In this document: positions 13,977 through 20,731 of the stretch, one piece after another
How positions within the stretch are numbered: the first letter of the stretch is position 1
How the letters are laid out: every line of letters starts with the position of its first letter
From: Parvibaculaceae bacterium PLY_AMNH_Bact1
GTDB taxonomy: Bacteria > Pseudomonadota > Alphaproteobacteria > Parvibaculales > Parvibaculaceae
Assembly (NCBI GenBank): GCA_032881465.1
Contig: CP126168.1
Span: forward strand, 2,480,001-2,544,000
Reading direction: 5' to 3'
DNA: 64,000 nucleotides
Program-made: the position numbers and the translations under genes
Notes under the pieces: model-generated
What the model was told of the DNA's origin: nothing
The model's database searches: none
Seen by the model: the letters and a program-made list of their open reading frames with translations, nothing else

Positions 13977-14288
13977 TGAAATCTCCATGAAACGAAGGGA
14001 GGCGCGACCATTTCGGCGCGCTCAGAATTTGCGCGGACCCTGACCGAAGGGAACACCGATCAGAAGATCCAATTTCCCAACCCCTACCCGCTCGTTGGTG
14101 CCTACAATGTTGGTCCGCTGACTACATCGACGCCACCAAGACCACGACTGTGGTCCGTCGCCCCTGTGCCGCCCCCGCGGAGCAGGTCACCTTTGGTGAT
14201 CAAGCGTGAGCGAGAATACTGACATTTCCTGACAGGTGAGGCGCCCTGCCCCCTTTGAATGGGAGTGATTCCGCGCCATATTGGACTC

Positions 14289-16643
14289 ATGAGCACCAAG
14301 ACAGATCAGCCGGGATTCTCAGAAGCACCGGGCGCGTCGTTTGTTCCAGAACAACCGCTGACGCAGCCCGTACCCGAGCGCGCGCCCAATGGCGATGCCC
14401 TGGAACCCTTCACCCCCCACCGGCCCGAGCGCCCGGAAAAGTCCGAAGGCGGTATTGCCTTCAAGCTCGTCTCGGAGTTTGAGCCCAAGGGTGACCAGCC
14501 CGAAGCCATCAAGGAGCTGGTGGCGCAGGTGAACGAAGGCGAGCGCGACCAGGTGCTCCTCGGCGTCACCGGCTCCGGCAAGACCTTCACCATGGCGAAG
14601 GTGATTGAACAGACCCAGCGCCCGGCGATTATCCTCGCGCCGAACAAGACGCTCGCCGCCCAGCTTTACGGGGAGTTTAAAAACTTCTTCCCGGACAATG
14701 CGGTCGAATATTTCGTGTCCTATTACGACTATTACCAGCCGGAAGCCTATGTGGCCCGCACGGACACCTATATCGAAAAAGAAAGCTCCATCAACGAGCA
14801 GATCGACCGCATGCGCCACGCCGCGACGCGCGCCCTGCTGGAGCGCGACGATGTCATCATCGTGGCGTCCGTCTCCTGCATTTACGGCATCGGCTCGGTG
14901 GAAACCTATTCGGAGATGACCTTCACCGTGAAGGTGGGCGAGAAGCTCGACCGCAACCAGCTGATCGCCGACCTCGTCGCCCTGCAATATAAGCGCAACG
15001 ACAACGCGTTTCAGCGCGGCACCTTCCGCGTGCGCGGCGACACGGTGGAAGTCTTCCCCGCTCACCTGGAAGACCGGGCCTGGCGCGTCAACATGTTTGG
15101 CGATGAGGTGGAGGAGATTGTCGAGTTCGATCCCCTGACCGGCCACAAGACAGACCGCCGCCCCTTCATCAAGCTCTACGCCAACTCCCACCACGTGACG
15201 CCGGGCCCGACGCTGCAGCAGGCGGCGACCCAGATCAAAAAGGAACTGGGCGACCGCCTCGATGAGCTGAACGCCCAGAACAAATTGCTGGAAGCCCAGC
15301 GGCTGGAACAGCGCTGCAATTTTGACATTGAGATGATGCTCGCCACCGGCAGCTGCGCGGGCATCGAGAACTATTCCCGCTACCTCACCGGCCGCAAGCC
15401 CGGCGAGCCGCCCCCCACGCTGTTTGAATATATCCCGGACAATGCCCTCATCTTTGCCGACGAAAGCCATGTGAGCGTGCCCCAGATCGGCGGCATGTAT
15501 CGCGGCGACTATCGGCGGAAATCGACCCTCGCGGAATTCGGCTTCCGCCTGCCAAGCTGCGTGGACAACCGCCCGCTCAAGTTCGAGGAATGGAACGCCA
15601 TGCGGCCGCAGACAGTCTATGTCTCGGCCACCCCCGGCCCCTGGGAGATGGAGCGCACCGGCGGCGTCTTCGTGGAACAAGTGATCCGCCCCACAGGCCT
15701 CATCGACCCGCCGACGGAAATCCGCCCCGTGGACACGCAAGTTGATGATCTGATTGACGAGTGCAAACAGGTGGCAGCGCGCGGCGGGCGCATTCTCGTC
15801 ACCACGCTCACCAAGCGCATGGCAGAAGACCTCACCGAATATATGCATGAGCAGGGCATCCGCGTGCGCTACATGCATTCCGACATCGACACGCTGGAGC
15901 GCATCGAGATCATTCGCGACCTGCGCCTCGGCGCCTTTGATGTGCTGATCGGCATCAACCTGCTGCGCGAGGGCCTCGACATTCCCGAGTGCGAGCTGGT
16001 GGCGATCCTCGATGCGGACAAGGAGGGCTTCCTGCGCTCAGAAACCTCGCTGGTGCAGACCATTGGCCGCGCGGCGCGGAATGTCGACGGGCGCGTCATC
16101 CTCTATGCGGACAAGGTGACGGGCTCCATGGAGCGCGCGCTGGCGGAGACCGCCCGCCGGCGGGAGAAGCAGGAAGCCTATAACAAGGAACATGGCATCA
16201 CGCCGGAAAGCATTCGCAAGAATATCGGCGACATCATGGAGAGCATGTACGAGCAGGACCATGTGAGCGTCGACACGGGCCCAGAAAGTATATATGGGGA
16301 CACGGTGGAACTGGTCGGCCACAATCTACGTGCGCACATTCAGGATATGGAAAAGCGCATGAAGGACGCCGCCGCGGATCTGGAATTCGAGGAAGCCGCG
16401 CGCCTGCGCGACGAAATCCACCGCCTGGAACAGACGGAACTCGCCATCGCCGACGACCCGTTTGCGCGCCAAAGCGCCGTCGCCGCGGCGAACTCAAACA
16501 AATCCCTTCCCCCTCAGGGGGAAGGTCAGGATGGGGGTGGAAACAAAAAACGCCCCCTCGCCCGCTCAGCGTCCGGCAAAGCCGGCACGCGAACCTTCAA
16601 AAAGTCCGGCCAGACAAAGCCAAGACGCCGTAAGGGGCCTTAG
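14289..16643 (+). CDS. uvrB: Excinuclease ABC subunit B
   Basis: A 784-aa nucleotide-excision-repair helicase-like subunit, longer than the ~670 aa of E. coli. Walker A is GVTGSGKT and the beta-hairpin reads [11 protein letters not shown]; helicase motifs DESH and QTIGRAARN, and a C-terminal UVR domain ([20 protein letters not shown]) are present. The extra length is an N-terminal extension of ~55 residues and a basic C-terminal tail. That tail includes a translated palindrome ([13 protein letters not shown]). The start is uncertain; ATG 14259 is also in frame. Its third-position GC is visibly higher than that of most neighbours. Confidence 0.97.
16505..16525. repeat. REP-like palindrome inside the uvrB 3' end
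   Basis: CCTTCCCCC (16505-16513), TCA, GGGGGAAGG (16517-16525) is a perfect hairpin followed by GTCAGGATGGGGGTGG. It sits within the coding frame and adds [13 protein letters not shown] to the UvrB tail. From memory, the same peptide is produced by dispersed palindromes in other Alphaproteobacteria. Confidence 0.75.
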
Positions 16644-16736: not shown

Positions 16737-19364
16737 TTATCTTTTCAACACCATTTGATTGCTGAATATATCTTCCCCCCTCCAACGTCCGATCTTTGTG
16801 TCCATATGGAGTCTACGGCGTTCATCCCCCATTGCCATCGTGTAGTATGATGTCCCCCAGGCTTCGTCCAAAAGCGCCAACAAAAAGAAGCCAATTGAGT
16901 TGGCAAAGAAGTCACCTTCCGCGATCGGAAGCCAATCACGCTCGCTGTCGTCCGCAGGCCCCCGCATCAGAATGCTAGAATAGCTGAACATTGGCGCACG
17001 CACGACCCGGTTATCCATCCTGAATTCTTCTTCTTTTTCCAGTGCGTGGTAACCAGAATTCAAAACGATCTCATCGCTCATTCTAAACTTCGCCAACACT
17101 GCCGCCTTATCAAACCAGGTGTTTTCAGCTTCTGCGATTTTGAGAGCCCCAACATCACCACCTAGCCGCAGCACTGTCATAGCAATTTCCTGTTGATCCT
17201 TGTCCGTCAGGGAGCTTTCCTCACACAGGTTAACTTGTTCATTTGCCCAGCTTACGAGAGGTTCGCCACGAAGATGAGGGATTGCCGTATCTCTAGCGGC
17301 TCTGTTCGTTTCGCCTGTGAGCACGCCGCATATGCCGCGCAGATCTCCAGACTTCAATCCTCCGACAGATACAACTCCAGGCAACCCCGCCCTTTCCCCA
17401 TAAACCGGCGGGCACAGAAACGCCCGTGCAATTGCAACACCATGTTCATCTCTGACTGTTCGCAAGTTCTCTGAGAGCCGCCTCACGGTTTGCGCATTCT
17501 CTTCAGTAAAAGCATCAAGAAATTCATTGCTAGACATCGGCTTGAACTGAAGGCGGGAGATGAAATCTATTGGCTCTAGTTCAAGCCAATCATTCGCTCT
17601 ATATCGGTGTATCACATCGGTTAGACGGTCTTCCACGCTCACAGAAACATCAAGCGATGGGCATAATTCACCGCACACATCCACGATTGTTCCAGTCTCA
17701 TCATAGCTCGATCGCAACAAGCGCTCGAGATGATCTGTATCGGGTTCAAGCACCGCAGAAACCTTTGTACCCTCGCTTTGAAGCGCTTCGTCGTTTCCAG
17801 CGACCCTAAGTATGGGTCGAGAGTCAACTCCGTTCCGAAAATCAAGTACAAATGTTTGGTCCTTAGCTGCACCGCACCGGCGAGTTGTAACACGCACCTT
17901 CTTGCTGATCATGAAAACAGAAAAAAAGCCAATACCAAACTTCCCCGCATTGCCGACACCACGTGTCAACAATCCTGGAAACTCGCGCCTCATAAGTTCC
18001 GATCCCCAGAACGACTGACCGAAATTTAGCAGATGATGAACTAGAACATCCTGGCCCATTCCTAGCCCATTGTCCTCTACCTCGAGCACATGACCATCAT
18101 CGCTTTTCAGTATCCTAACAACAACCTCTCCCCATTCGTCGTCGACGCCATCGACCACCCTTCTAGCACGTATGGCATCGGACGCATTTTGGATCAGCTC
18201 CCTCAGCGCAATGTCAGGTTTGTCACCGTAAAGGGCTGAGCCACCTAGTTTTTTGACAATTTCAGTGACACCCGAAATATGCACCTCAGCAGACACAGGT
18301 ATCCAATCAACCACCGGAAGGTCGTTCGTCAGTTTTTCCAAACTGCCAATGTTTGCTACAGACCGGGCAGCAAAACGTTCGTTGTGCCCTCTTTTTGCGG
18401 CAATTAGTTGATCACTCCTTCGCAATTCACTATCGATCATCTTTAGCGTGTCAAGACACAACCACCACGCATCAGCATCCTCAACCCCAAAAGAAGTAAC
18501 TGACGTATAGACAATCTGATCATTCTGAAGAGCCGGACGCGCCAGTTTACTTTGAAAATTCCAATGGTTGCCGGATACGCCTGAGGGCTTACGAAGTGCT
18601 CTAAGAAAAGCCGGGGCTCTCCTCGCATCAACATGGGAAGCGTCTGCAGCTCTCAAAATAGCTGCCACCTTTAACAAATCGAAAGACCAGAGCTGCGGGA
18701 AAATCACCGGGGCATTCACGCGGCGGTCCAGTCGACGCTCAACCTCATCAACGGACCACCAGTGGCTATGGGCGATCATTCCAATTGCCTGTCCAAAGAT
18801 ACCACGTAGCTCGTCATCCCCCATCAACCGGTGTGCCATAGAGTCGCCACGCACTCTCCATTCACATGCGAGCAACTTCGCCGAGTGTTTTGCATGCATC
18901 TGCCGAAGTAGATCTGCGATCACCTCTTTCAAGACTTCTGCAGGTGGCTCCTGAATCTCAACGTCGCTAGGACGCCGGCCCTCCGTACGCTGAAAGAAAT
19001 AGACAACAGTATCGGACCATTCAGCGCTATCTTTAAGCTCACTAATTCCGGAGGGATAAGCTGCCAAACTCATAGCGGCATCGTGCAGCAAAATAGCTCC
19101 ACCAAGCACAAATGCTTCAGTCGGTGTGAGCTTATAGTCAGGCCCGCAAACAATGTCGGCCATAGACCAAAGTGCATCTAGATGCGTCAAGTCATGGACT
19201 GTATAGTCAGGTAAATCCCTTGCAATCTCACCCACCAACATCCCGACCTTATCGCGCAGTGCCATGTATGCCACTCGCAGCCTTTCACGCTGGGAATCGT
19301 ATTTGTCGTTCTCTCTGTATGCCAACGTTGATTGCCAGAGATGCGTTTCTTCGAATTCAGACAT
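16737..19364 (-). CDS. HD-domain protein fused to an HSP90-like (GHKL) ATPase
   Basis: An 875-aa cytoplasmic protein. Counting from the ATG at 19364, the N-terminal part (~40-245) keeps the HD-phosphohydrolase residues: H57, H94-D95 (LLHDA), H199/H201 (AHSHW) and a late D241 (RAADASH). A GHKL ATP-binding fold follows at ~355-520: E389/N393 in ELIQNASDAI, D431-x-G-x-G in VEDNGLGMG, and GNAGKFGIGFFSVF. The C-terminal ~350 residues match nothing I recognise. HD plus HSP90-like fusions are seen in predicted bacterial conflict systems, so a defence role is a reasonable guess. It is a lone gene, visibly more AT-rich than uvrB. Confidence 0.85.
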   Translation of the reverse strand: MSEFEETHLWQSTLAYRENDKYDSQRERLRVAYMALRDKVGMLVGEIARDLPDYTVHDLTHLDALWSMADIVCGPDYKLTPTEAFVLGGAILLHDAAMSLAAYPSGISELKDSAEWSDTVVYFFQRTEGRRPSDVEIQEPPAEVLKEVIADLLRQMHAKHSAKLLACEWRVRGDSMAHRLMGDDELRGIFGQAIGMIAHSHWWSVDEVERRLDRRVNAPVIFPQLWSFDLLKVAAILRAADASHVDARRAPAFLRALRKPSGVSGNHWNFQSKLARPALQNDQIVYTSVTSFGVEDADAWWLCLDTLKMIDSELRRSDQLIAAKRGHNERFAARSVANIGSLEKLTNDLPVVDWIPVSAEVHISGVTEIVKKLGGSALYGDKPDIALRELIQNASDAIRARRVVDGVDDEWGEVVVRILKSDDGHVLEVEDNGLGMGQDVLVHHLLNFGQSFWGSELMRREFPGLLTRGVGNAGKFGIGFFSVFMISKKVRVTTRRCGAAKDQTFVLDFRNGVDSRPILRVAGNDEALQSEGTKVSAVLEPDTDHLERLLRSSYDETGTIVDVCGELCPSLDVSVSVEDRLTDVIHRYRANDWLELEPIDFISRLQFKPMSSNEFLDAFTEENAQTVRRLSENLRTVRDEHGVAIARAFLCPPVYGERAGLPGVVSVGGLKSGDLRGICGVLTGETNRAARDTAIPHLRGEPLVSWANEQVNLCEESSLTDKDQQEIAMTVLRLGGDVGALKIAEAENTWFDKAAVLAKFRMSDEIVLNSGYHALEKEEEFRMDNRVVRAPMFSYSSILMRGPADDSERDWLPIAEGDFFANSIGFFLLALLDEAWGTSYYTMAMGDERRRLHMDTKIGRWRGEDIFSNQMVLKR

Positions 19365-19626
19365 GGATCTTTGCAATTCTTCTAAACTGATAAGGTGACT
19401 CTATCCTACGCGTGCAGCCAATAGTGCCGAGTTTTCTGGATTGAGCAAGCATGCTCGGGGTGACTAAGTGTCTTTCAACCATCCCCCTAATGCATGTCGG
19501 TCGAATCGGTGCCAAAATTCGCGCCAAGACTGCGCATCTTTTGACCCTCTTTTTTTCAGTCTGACACGACATGCACTGAACAAATGATTCTGCTATGCTG
19601 ATCACGCGGCGGGCAAAATCTCGTCG

Positions 19627-19830
19627 TGGGGCGTAGTAACCCCAAACCAAGACATGCGGTCACCCGTCATTAGGTTTTACCTAAGCAGACATGCGTGGCC
19701 GGGTGGCGGTCACGCATGTCCAGGGTTATCACCTAAAGGTGGTCGCGCCCTTTCGTCTTGGGAGGGTTACTAACACCCGGCTTTTTCGCTCTTAGCCGGA
19801 ATTGCCTCTCCCGAAACGGCAAGAGAGGCA
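19627..19830 (+). ncRNA. Candidate structured 5' leader with six hairpins
   Basis: Six perfect inverted repeats lie end to end: TGGGG/CCCCA (19627-19631, 19640-19644); TTAGGT/ACCTAA (19670-19675, 19679-19684); GACATGCGTG/CACGCATGTC (19688-19697, 19711-19720); CACCT/AGGTG (19730-19734, 19737-19741); CCGGCT/AGCCGG (19777-19782, 19794-19799); TGCCTCTC/GAGAGGCA (19803-19810, 19823-19830). The last one buries the Shine-Dalgarno GAGAGG of the gene starting at 19834. This fits a regulatory leader that hides the start site. I do not recognise a known riboswitch family. Upstream, 19365-19626 shows no gene or clear structure. Confidence 0.5.
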
Positions 19831-19833
19831 GGC

Positions 19834-20148
19834 ATGACCTCCCCAGATGATCCAGAAGACGGTGGCAAAGCCACCGGGGACGGCAAGAAGACCTCCGAGG
19901 CAGGAGAAGACGCACTGAACCTCGCCTACTTGCCCCCGCACGCAAGGGCTCATTATGGAAGCGCGGACGAGCGCATTCAAAACGCGCTGGCCCATGTGAA
20001 CCCGGAGACAGCCGTCACCTTCCTCCGCAAGACCCACGGGGCCCAGGCGGGCCAGGAGGCGCTCATGCGCGCCCTCATGGCGGAGCGGCAGCACCACCGC
20101 ACCGCCGCCCGCTATTGGCTGGATGTGTATGGGAAGTTGGTGGGGTAG
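19834..20148 (+). CDS. Small orphan protein downstream of hairpin-rich leader
   Basis: A 104-aa protein of unknown function. The first ~28 residues are acidic, Gly/Lys-rich and probably disordered (DDPEDGGKATGDGKK). The rest is predicted helical with several His and Arg residues (LPPHARAHYGSADERI, ALMAERQHHRTAARYWLDVY). The ATG is preceded by GAGAGGCAGGC, whose GAGAGG is one arm of a hairpin. No partner gene lies downstream; a palindrome-rich repeat region follows. Confidence 0.65.
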   Translation: MTSPDDPEDGGKATGDGKKTSEAGEDALNLAYLPPHARAHYGSADERIQNALAHVNPETAVTFLRKTHGAQAGQEALMRALMAERQHHRTAARYWLDVYGKLVG

Positions 20149-20181
20149 AAGACGTTTGATGCCTGCGTCTGCAGCCCCTGG

Positions 20182-20204
20182 ACCCCCGGAACAAGTCCGG
20201 GGGT
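20182..20204 (+). repeat. Paired palindromic element, copy a
   Basis: Arms ACCCCCGGA and TCCGGGGGT around loop ACAAG, flanked by CCTGG on the left and GACGG on the right. Confidence 0.9.
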
Positions 20205-20254
20205 GACGGTCTTAGTTTGGAGGTACCGCAAAGGACAATCAAAAACTCTGCGTC

Positions 20255-20277
20255 ATTACCGGGCTTGTCCCGGTAAT
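20255..20277 (-). repeat. Paired palindromic element, copy b
   Basis: Arms ATTACCGGG and CCCGGTAAT around CTTGT, inverted relative to copy a (loop is its reverse complement; flanks CGTC and CCAGGG). Confidence 0.9.
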
Positions 20278-20317
20278 CCAGGGTTACAGAATAAAAGCCT
20301 GCGTTTGTAGCCCCTGG

Positions 20318-20340
20318 ACCCCCGGAACAAGTCCGGGGGT
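20318..20340 (+). repeat. Paired palindromic element, copy c
   Basis: Arms ACCCCCGGA and TCCGGGGGT around ACAAG; identical to copy a. Confidence 0.9.
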
Positions 20341-20389
20341 GACGGCTTTTGTTTTATGTGCTTCAGGGGACAATCAAAAACTCTGTGTC

Positions 20390-20412
20390 ATTACCGGGCT
20401 TGTCCCGGTAAT
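20390..20412 (-). repeat. Paired palindromic element, copy d
   Basis: Arms ATTACCGGG and CCCGGTAAT around CTTGT; identical to copy b and inverted relative to c. Confidence 0.9.
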
Positions 20413-20437
20413 CCAGGGTAAGGAACCGCATACCAGC

Positions 20438-20731
20438 CTACTTCATGAGATCGTCGTAGAGGTCGCGCCATTGCGGATTGCGTTCCTCAATCAGATTAAT
20501 CTTCCACACCCGCGGATAGGCCTTGATGGTCTTCTCCCGCTGAATGGCAGAAAGCGCGTCGCCCGCTTCTTCGAACCAGACAAGGTGTTTCAGATCGTAG
20601 CGGGACGTAAACCCTTCTACGGTGCCGCTCTTATGCTCATAAGCGCGGCGAGCGAGATCGCTCGTCACACCGCAATAGAGCGTGCCATTGCGACGGTTGG
20701 TCATGAGGTAAACGTGGAAGCGTTTCTCCAT
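20438..20731 (-). CDS. GIY-YIG domain nuclease (UPF0213-like)
   Basis: A 97-aa single-domain protein. The GIY-YIG motif is degenerate but recognisable: HVYLMTN at residues ~5-11 and LYCGVTSDLARRAYEH at ~17-32, with the catalytic Arg in ARRAYEH and a Glu in EREK-type context (IQREKTIKAYPRVWKINLIE). The family cuts DNA, often branched or repair intermediates; the role of stand-alone members is unclear. The frame is open upstream, but that extension is only a translated palindromic element (PGLVPGIQG), so I start at MEKRF. It sits between palindrome copies d and e. Confidence 0.85.
   Translation of the reverse strand: MEKRFHVYLMTNRRNGTLYCGVTSDLARRAYEHKSGTVEGFTSRYDLKHLVWFEEAGDALSAIQREKTIKAYPRVWKINLIEERNPQWRDLYDDLMK

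Follow-up and report, generated by a model that had tools for sequence, protein, structure and literature searches.

The array of hairpins preceding a 104-aa gene in the window (the whole stretch of DNA that was analysed, 64,000 nucleotides of the genome of Parvibaculaceae bacterium PLY_AMNH_Bact1) is likely to be the leader of this small gene and to represent a divergent, genus-level branch of the C4-type antisense RNA regulators. The leader RNA probably controls the 104-aa gene. One architecture is found in the window RNA, in sRNA-Xcc1, and in C4 and its relatives, and this common architecture makes a single origin probable, descent being judged here from sequence comparison. The original prediction had placed the array in no known class. 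That statement is not supported, as the order of an a1 hairpin, a b1 strand, a b' segment in a hairpin loop, an a' segment and an outer helix is the architecture of phage P1 C4 and of sRNA-Xcc1.

The structured RNA occupies positions 19606–19781 of the forward strand and ends 52 nt 5' of the 104-aa ORF. All six inverted repeats described originally are borne out (19628–19631/19640–19643, 19670–19674/19680–19684, 19688–19697/19711–19720, 19730–19734/19737–19741, 19777–19781/19795–19799 and 19803–19810/19823–19830), though the element exceeds that description, with the RNA beginning at the hairpin 19605–19628. The features of the region are as follows.

16737–19376, reverse strand: 879-aa protein with HD-CE and HATPase (HSP90-like) domain matches, the divergent neighbour, replaced by others at other copies.
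19588–19599, forward strand: extended -10-like promoter element TTCTGCTATGCT, with TGnTATG at 19591–19597 and a TGnTA core in eight of eight copies; putative promoter role.
19605–19628, forward strand: 5' hairpin P0 with loop region GGGCAAAAUCUC, identified by folding, pair-keeping variation in eight copies and comparison with P1.
19628–19643, forward strand: hairpin A (GGGG/CCCC) with loop CGUAGUAA; GC/AU covariation at one stem pair, 96.2% of cells paired.
19647–19653, forward strand: b1-like strand CCAAGAC, partner 19755–19761; double-sided changes at five of seven pairs, 75% of cells paired.
19670–19684, forward strand: hairpin UUAGGUUUUACCUAA (UUAGG..CCUAA) of the window-type copies; from the eight-copy alignment.
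19688–19720, forward strand: hairpin P4, stem 19688–19697/19711–19720, with B in its loop; read as an inverted repeat and from the eight-copy alignment and covariation.
19748–19766, forward strand: hairpin with b' GUCUUGG (19755–19761) in its loop, read directly from the sequence; rivals the b1–b' pairing.
19767–19772, forward strand: a' segment UUACUA, pairing with the loop of hairpin A according to the swap test and covariation.
19774–19781, forward strand: B' CACCCGGC, forming the outer helix with B at 19698–19705; mostly invariant, and paired in 100% of cells across the set of 13.
19795–19799, forward strand: GCCGG, an alternative partner of B' read directly from the sequence; the small hairpin would replace the outer helix.
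19803–19830, forward strand: hairpin hiding the Shine-Dalgarno (SD) sequence, stem 19803–19810/19823–19830, from the inverted-repeat reading and folds.
19834–20148, forward strand: conserved 104-aa gene, an ORF with a predicted disordered N-terminus and predicted C-terminal helices.

The a1-like segment UAGUAA (19634–19639) lies inside the loop of hairpin A, and B (19698–19705, GCCGGGUG) lies in the loop of P4. P4 and the b' hairpin are separated by the invariant stretch CCUAAAGG, and both are competitors of the named long-range pairs. The a' segment is located directly 5' of the 3' strand of the outer helix (sequence 19767–19781), and the conserved RNA domain ends with B' at 19781. Because the a1–a' and B–B' helices are interleaved, they would form a pseudoknot if both form. 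The segment 19774–19781 can pair with 19698–19705 or, partly, with 19795–19799, and the local repeats are thus not all independent.

The forward strand of 19600–19840 folds at -113 kcal/mol (z -6.3), whereas its shuffled versions give -81.8 (sd 4.95) and none of the 200 is as low; three other copies give z values of -5.6, -8.7 and -2.4. The opposite strand is nearly as stable (-108.4, z -6.0), and the G-U pairs within the helices are consistent with the forward strand being the RNA. A sigma-70 scan of 19360–20440 omits the extended -10-like TGnTATG and has its sole forward-strand match at 19561–19588.

Four copies of the unit are present in the window genome (G000), as found with 19560–20160 as the query, and full-length copies occur in three of the six other species of the genus (one each in G003 and G001, two in G005). 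The genus genomes compared include Alpha proteobacterium Mf 1.05b.01 and the Rhodobiaceae MAGs FE80 and NORP32. The same DNA search returned nothing in the remaining 57 of 61 genomes; the family-level and order-level searches covered an identical set of 40 genomes. Model R1 identified a further divergent RNA in G005 (L079), and model R2 a second divergent RNA in G003 (G003:C2:1934353-1934507, 67.4 bits). Across the alphaproteobacteria, R2 matched 77 places in 45 of 385 genomes and 39 of 276 genera, a lower bound given the strict filters, with five of the 77 being copies used in the model and its source genomes G000 and G003 among the 45. Minus-strand matches of the models were regarded as mirror images of the stems. 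One genome of 1.9 Mb (G038) carries six R2-type RNAs. A simple script was used to pick the genes downstream of 28 R2 loci, and these genes are highly varied; Pfam analysis of six gave ORF6N (L140), DUF4268 (L122), HTH (L129), PhyH (L134), no match (L121) and a Rha-like protein below the cut-off (L132).

A BLASTN search of the window RNA against 72,556 plasmids returned seven records (four Sphingomonas, two Polymorphobacter and one Qipengyuania), and among the four records examined, two Sphingomonas plasmids have the RNA at the head of a gene run extending to a MobF relaxase. The RNA of locus L080 (R1, 23.7 bits) precedes a TraM gene (Prok-TraM) and matches 360 of the 72,556 plasmid records, with at least 80% of the query covered in 320; Agrobacterium (185) and Rhizobium (78) account for 263 of the 360. 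The next gene is traM in all seven cases examined, by annotation (H1–H3, H6), by region (H4, H10) or by Pfam (L080). This traM leader of Ti-type conjugative plasmids resembles the window type, with R2, which was built without traM leaders, scoring 61–78 bits on four of four, but it differs in preceding a TraM gene and in having another 5' hairpin. A conserved GCGGGGGCGCACCGCGGAC-like stretch lies between the RNA and traM (L085–L087, L080) and is a possible second partner of B'. The listings of the literature searches provided no published name or description for the traM leader RNA.

The original prediction named alignment in relatives as a check on the stems, and the helices do covary. RNAalifold analysis of the eight copies gives 61 pairs, 12 of which have at least one double change. 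The named pseudoknotted structure of 35 pairs was scored in 13 sequences (eight window-type copies, one divergent copy and four sphingomonad plasmids, with the traM and sRNA-Xcc1 types excluded). In this set 90.5% of cells are paired compared with 82.4% when shuffled (0/500), 41 cells carry double-sided changes compared with 15.2 (0/500), the covariation score is 0.285 compared with 0.158 (0/500), and 12 pairs have a double change compared with 8.3 (8/500). Structures slid along the alignment score at most 0.113, a control biased towards any structure that, like the present one, was read from a member of the set. The most variable helix of the set is b1–b'.

Pairing was also examined by swapping partners among 45 RNAs, with L099 and L109 omitted (match shifted by a contig end) and L131 left out of the group-wise swap and CCA analyses (misplaced RNA end). 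Duplex energies were too noisy, the own partner being best for a' in 10, B' in 16, b' in two and the ribosome binding site (RBS) in one of the 45, and contiguous-helix scores were used instead, a choice made after the duplex outcome was known. With these scores, a' paired with its own 5' region reaches 20.4 compared with 14.7 when swapped, B' reaches 23.4 compared with 17.9, and b' reaches 19.2 compared with 16.9, each with 0/5000 permutations as high. Individual RNAs beat 95% of swaps in 25 of 45 cases for a', 14 for B' and nine for b'. The best helix is sometimes not the named one, for example for a' of copy G0b and b' of copy G3. The eight window copies alone give 3/2000 permutations for a' and 4/2000 for b', and 1759/2000 for B–B', a helix that is nearly invariant there. 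In the traM group (n=4) a' is not separated (329/2000 permutations reach the own score; b' 76), and in the sphingomonad group (n=4) b' is not separated (1484/2000; a' 91). When B' is scored against the downstream region, the own partner ranks in the top three of 45 in six of the eight copies, with no gain within the group (16.1 and 16.1), where both sides are near-invariant.

The final stem was originally reported to hold the SD of the gene at 19834, and this is read directly in the sequence, where GAGAGG (19823–19828) lies in the stem and the ORF starts 5 nt beyond. When 12 window-type and sphingomonad leaders are folded from B' to the start codon, 11 of them have this stem in the minimum-energy structure, and the ten bases before the spacer have mean unpaired probabilities of 0.21–0.50 across the twelve. 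The exception is G0b, in which the short fold favours another stem and leaves AGAGA of the SD region unpaired, although the SD stem does appear when the longer strand is folded. The SD stems align poorly, and this alignment did not enter the counts. Sphingomonad leaders likewise carry an SD hairpin of their own. The downstream genes of the eight copies encode 85–124 aa and are under purifying selection in most comparisons, so that the conservation of this reading frame, on which the original prediction depended, is upheld. The dN/dS values are 0.08–0.25 among the window copy (W), G0b, G3 and G1 (W–G3 0.18, W–G0b 0.09, W–G1 0.16) and 0.42–1.14 against the divergent copy G5b, where the N-terminus is poorly aligned. 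The gene had been called an orphan, which is not quite so given the eight copies in the genus and the two proteins outside it, from Microvirga and OFTM203, that resemble the C-terminus. The 104-aa protein has no Pfam match, PHROGs gave nothing usable for it, the viral contigs queried with the ORF contain no relative, and the predicted structure has a mean pLDDT of 66.8. The neighbours of the two C-terminal relatives are, by likeness, presumably a SIR2-like protein (Microvirga) and a restriction-like protein (OFTM203). No RNA was seen by eye at either, and R1 is blank nearby, with one far match (L045, E 2.1).

In phage P1, C4 is an antisense RNA with target sites a2 and b2, which repeat the a1 and b1 sequences at the RBS of the gene that follows, and the downstream genes form the icd/antirepressor operon. 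The P1 record has the order a1, b1, C4, a2, b2. Like C4 (P1 c4-icd-ant; RF01695 and RF03163, clan CL00128), the window RNA is a leader that has a GCAAAnUC hairpin first and next to it a hairpin with a1 in its loop, followed by b1, then b' in a hairpin loop and a' beside the 3' strand of the outer helix. By sequence and covariation, the 3' domain carries the a' and b' partners of the looped a1 and the upstream b1, and the outer helix closes that domain. The loop GCAAAUUC of the first hairpin of the P1 c4-a1b1 element recurs in P0 of seven of the eight window-type copies, and by eye GCGGUAUUUUUGUG or a near-identical sequence follows b1 in P1 and in several sRNA-Xcc1 leaders. The Rfam C4 models do not match 19560–19860 even at E 10, and the gathering threshold of RF01695 is not reached. 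The window type differs from C4 in having the SD hairpin in place of a2/b2 and an unrelated downstream gene, the 104-aa protein in place of an icd/antirepressor operon. Downstream scores for b2 and a2 in the window group are 15.0 and 12.9 with the own partner and 16.8 and 13.9 when swapped within the group. In the divergent copy L079, which is intermediate, CCGCACAA sits immediately ahead of the ATG and pairs with a segment, UUGUGCGG, that overlaps the b' of this copy.

According to a title cited in PMC12710915, RNase P acts on the C4 precursor as a substrate. A CCA within 7 nt after B' occurs in 14 of 28 and 15 of 27 RNAs of the two larger groups and in none of the eight window, four sphingomonad and four traM RNAs, and its absence from all eight window copies makes C4-style RNase P processing doubtful for them. 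Another phage leader, IsrK (RF01394, Salmonella prophage Gifsy-1), is described in PMC4825925 as controlling translation of its downstream operon; it overlaps the P1 a1/b1 region with 35.1 bits, below gathering, and does not match in 19560–19860.

At the gathering threshold no Rfam family matches the window RNA, which agrees with what was first predicted. A lax search of 19560–19860 provided one chance match and a weak match to sRNA-Xcc1 (RF02221; 21.1 bits, E 0.22, gathering 53), which covers model positions 1–87 in register; the weak Rfam match of L077 is also sRNA-Xcc1, in register with that of the window. This 87-nt model spans only the 3' half of the C4-like layout. It matches in 61 of 398 Pseudomonadota genomes, 39 of them above gathering, and in none of 14 control genomes, and one genome (G345) carries nine sRNA-Xcc1-type RNAs. 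Thirty loci were examined with their flanks, and 28 remained once L099 and L109 were set aside. About 100 nt upstream of sRNA-Xcc1 there is a hairpin with the a' complement in its loop, together with b1, so the pairing order of P1 C4 recurs around these matches. The a' complement is at least 7 nt long without odd pairs in 25 of the 28 loci (by the author's reading, not in L096, L112 and L113). Copies of a1/b1 flank the SD of the next gene in many loci, for example L105, L106, L107, L116 and L117, and are not present at others, such as L100 and L093. In the corresponding test, 14 of the 28 loci have a b' that outscores 90% or more of the swaps; against the downstream region b' scores 18.7 in this group compared with 14.6 when swapped, while the alphaproteobacterial R2 group is weak (34/2000). 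In 20 of the 28 R2 loci taken for the comparison, the sRNA-Xcc1 model matches eight in register (28.6–37.2 bits, all below gathering), and one place, G432:C16, is matched by both models.

The apparent likeness between sRNA-Xcc1 and the window type comprises the outer helix (for example GGCCGGGUG/CACCCGGCC) with a' directly before it, and the a1 hairpin and b1 that lie outside the Rfam model. The window type differs in being without the RBS mimic, in its extra P0 and P4 hairpins and in its score of only 21.1 bits. According to PMC12444791, sRNA-Xcc1 is located in Xanthomonas integron cassettes, upstream of symE. It is named separately from C4 in PMC12189769, and titles and abstract openings yielded no paper joining the two. 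The RNA itself is reported in PMC2996969 as stable, about 100 nt long and with mapped ends. By analogy, and as proposed for sRNA-Xcc1, the window leader might release a trans-acting small RNA through termination or processing, with targets elsewhere. Terminator-like hairpins seen by eye 3' of B' in several alphaproteobacterial relatives would suit this explanation, which is compatible with the C4 one. The forward strand of 19360–20440, however, contains no terminator-like site in a scan, and the RNA adjoins the ORF in all eight copies; a trans-acting product is rather unlikely for the window.

The original prediction proposed a riboswitch, a thermosensor or a protein-binding leader. The structured leader, the covariation of its helices, the conserved frame behind it and the SD-hiding stem (11 of 12 folds) are supported; a metabolite riboswitch or a thermosensor gained no positive evidence. 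A leader of this kind would open the SD hairpin in response to a ligand, heat or a protein, and its likeness to C4 would be a convergence of GC-rich hairpins. The SD hairpin is kept though a2/b2 sites are absent, and a binding site could be formed by invariant stretches, CCUAAAGG among them. Against this, P1 has the same order of a1 hairpin, b1, b', a' and B' together with the GCAAAnUC loop, the pairing scheme recurs at sRNA-Xcc1 loci, the sRNA-Xcc1 model matches eight of 20 relatives in register, and a and b vary freely, unlike a ligand pocket. A leader outside the C4 type is for these reasons improbable.

The RNA and the ORF occur together in eight of eight copies, whereas the gene 5' of the RNA is different beside each of them. 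This neighbour is divergent from the RNA in seven of eight copies, the exception being that of G003. In the window it is the 879-aa protein with HD-CE and HSP90-like ATPase domains, which may be a defence effector. The 5' neighbour is OLD/GajA-like in G003 and SIR2-nSTAND-TPR in G001; in G005 one copy has a TIR-like protein (below Pfam cut-offs; PADLOC TIR effector, E 1.5e-7) and a 228-aa protein, and the second has an ORF of 120 aa, located in sequence that is masked in part. The other G000 copies have a pentapeptide protein, a TPR protein with a small ORF, and a 448-aa protein of no known kind. The domains found support a defence-like neighbour in four of the eight copies (window, G003, G001 and G005b).

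The gene bordering the shared module site is, by likeness, one that we take to be uvrB. Downstream of it, the module is present with differing cargo in G000, G001, G003 and G005, and G002 has other cargo and no module; the site is not seen on the contigs of G004 and G006. This uvrB-side hotspot (from 14259–16643 to 20148) holds different genes in each of five genus species, several of them defence-like; G002 carries a peptidase M78 gene there and, together with an alpha-glutamyl/putrescinyl thymine pyrophosphorylase, a thymidylate-synthase-like gene. The G0b unit is missing between matching genes in G003 and, along with the preceding gene, in G006, and the G0d unit is missing in G001 and G003. 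At the G0d site G005 and G002 (loci L062 and L059) carry TPR-type cargo without an RNA match, and the RNA and the cargo are thus not always together. Clean transposition was considered and rejected for the G0b unit, which replaces approximately 130 nt at the matching G003 site with no target duplication or clean junction seen. Palindromic repeats (GGACCCCCGGAACAAGTCCGGGGGTGACGG, ATTACCGGGCTTGTCCCGGTAATCCAGGG) are located at 20169–20420 behind the ORF, and similar ones occur near other modules and at unit edges. That the array is instead a folded DNA element, a recombination or insertion site for cargo exchange with an incidental RNA fold, would accord with cargo that varies by copy and units missing at matching sites in some relatives, but it is very improbable given that the promoter core, the SD hairpin and the reading frame are all conserved, that G-U pairs occur on one strand and that neither a clean junction nor a target duplication was seen at the G0b site in G003.

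For a C4-type leader, the transcript would start near 19605 and the SD hairpin would keep the 104-aa gene at a low level of translation. Alternative folds of the RNA domain may form, with a' and b' paired to a1 and b1, and with B' paired to either B or 19795–19799. The choice of fold, or pairing in trans with another copy carrying matching a and b sequences, would then set the output of the small protein, making the element a putative C4-derived switch on small-gene translation. The a1/b1 pairs differ among the four G000 paralogues, two of which have a common a1 but not b1. Variation of a and b between paralogues on a constant scaffold is expected if these segments encode specificity.

A wider reading, held tentatively and at somewhat less than even confidence, is that C4-type RNAs are one large superfamily of mobile-element RNA switches that includes sRNA-Xcc1, the traM leaders, the sphingomonad conjugation leaders and the window type. 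The scaffold would be kept while the a/b sequences set specificity, and a resident element would use its RNA to silence the corresponding genes of a related element on arrival. The window branch would have swapped the target site for a local SD hairpin, so becoming a stand-alone switch that governs a small protein linked to defence islands. The finding provides a testable function for a leader family that is poorly described by the models of Rfam 15, and suggests why sRNA-Xcc1 precedes genes, namely as the presumed 3' half of a leader of the C4 kind. If this is right, quorum-controlled Ti-type conjugation would have an RNA layer at traM, and defence islands may carry RNA switches of the phage-immunity type.
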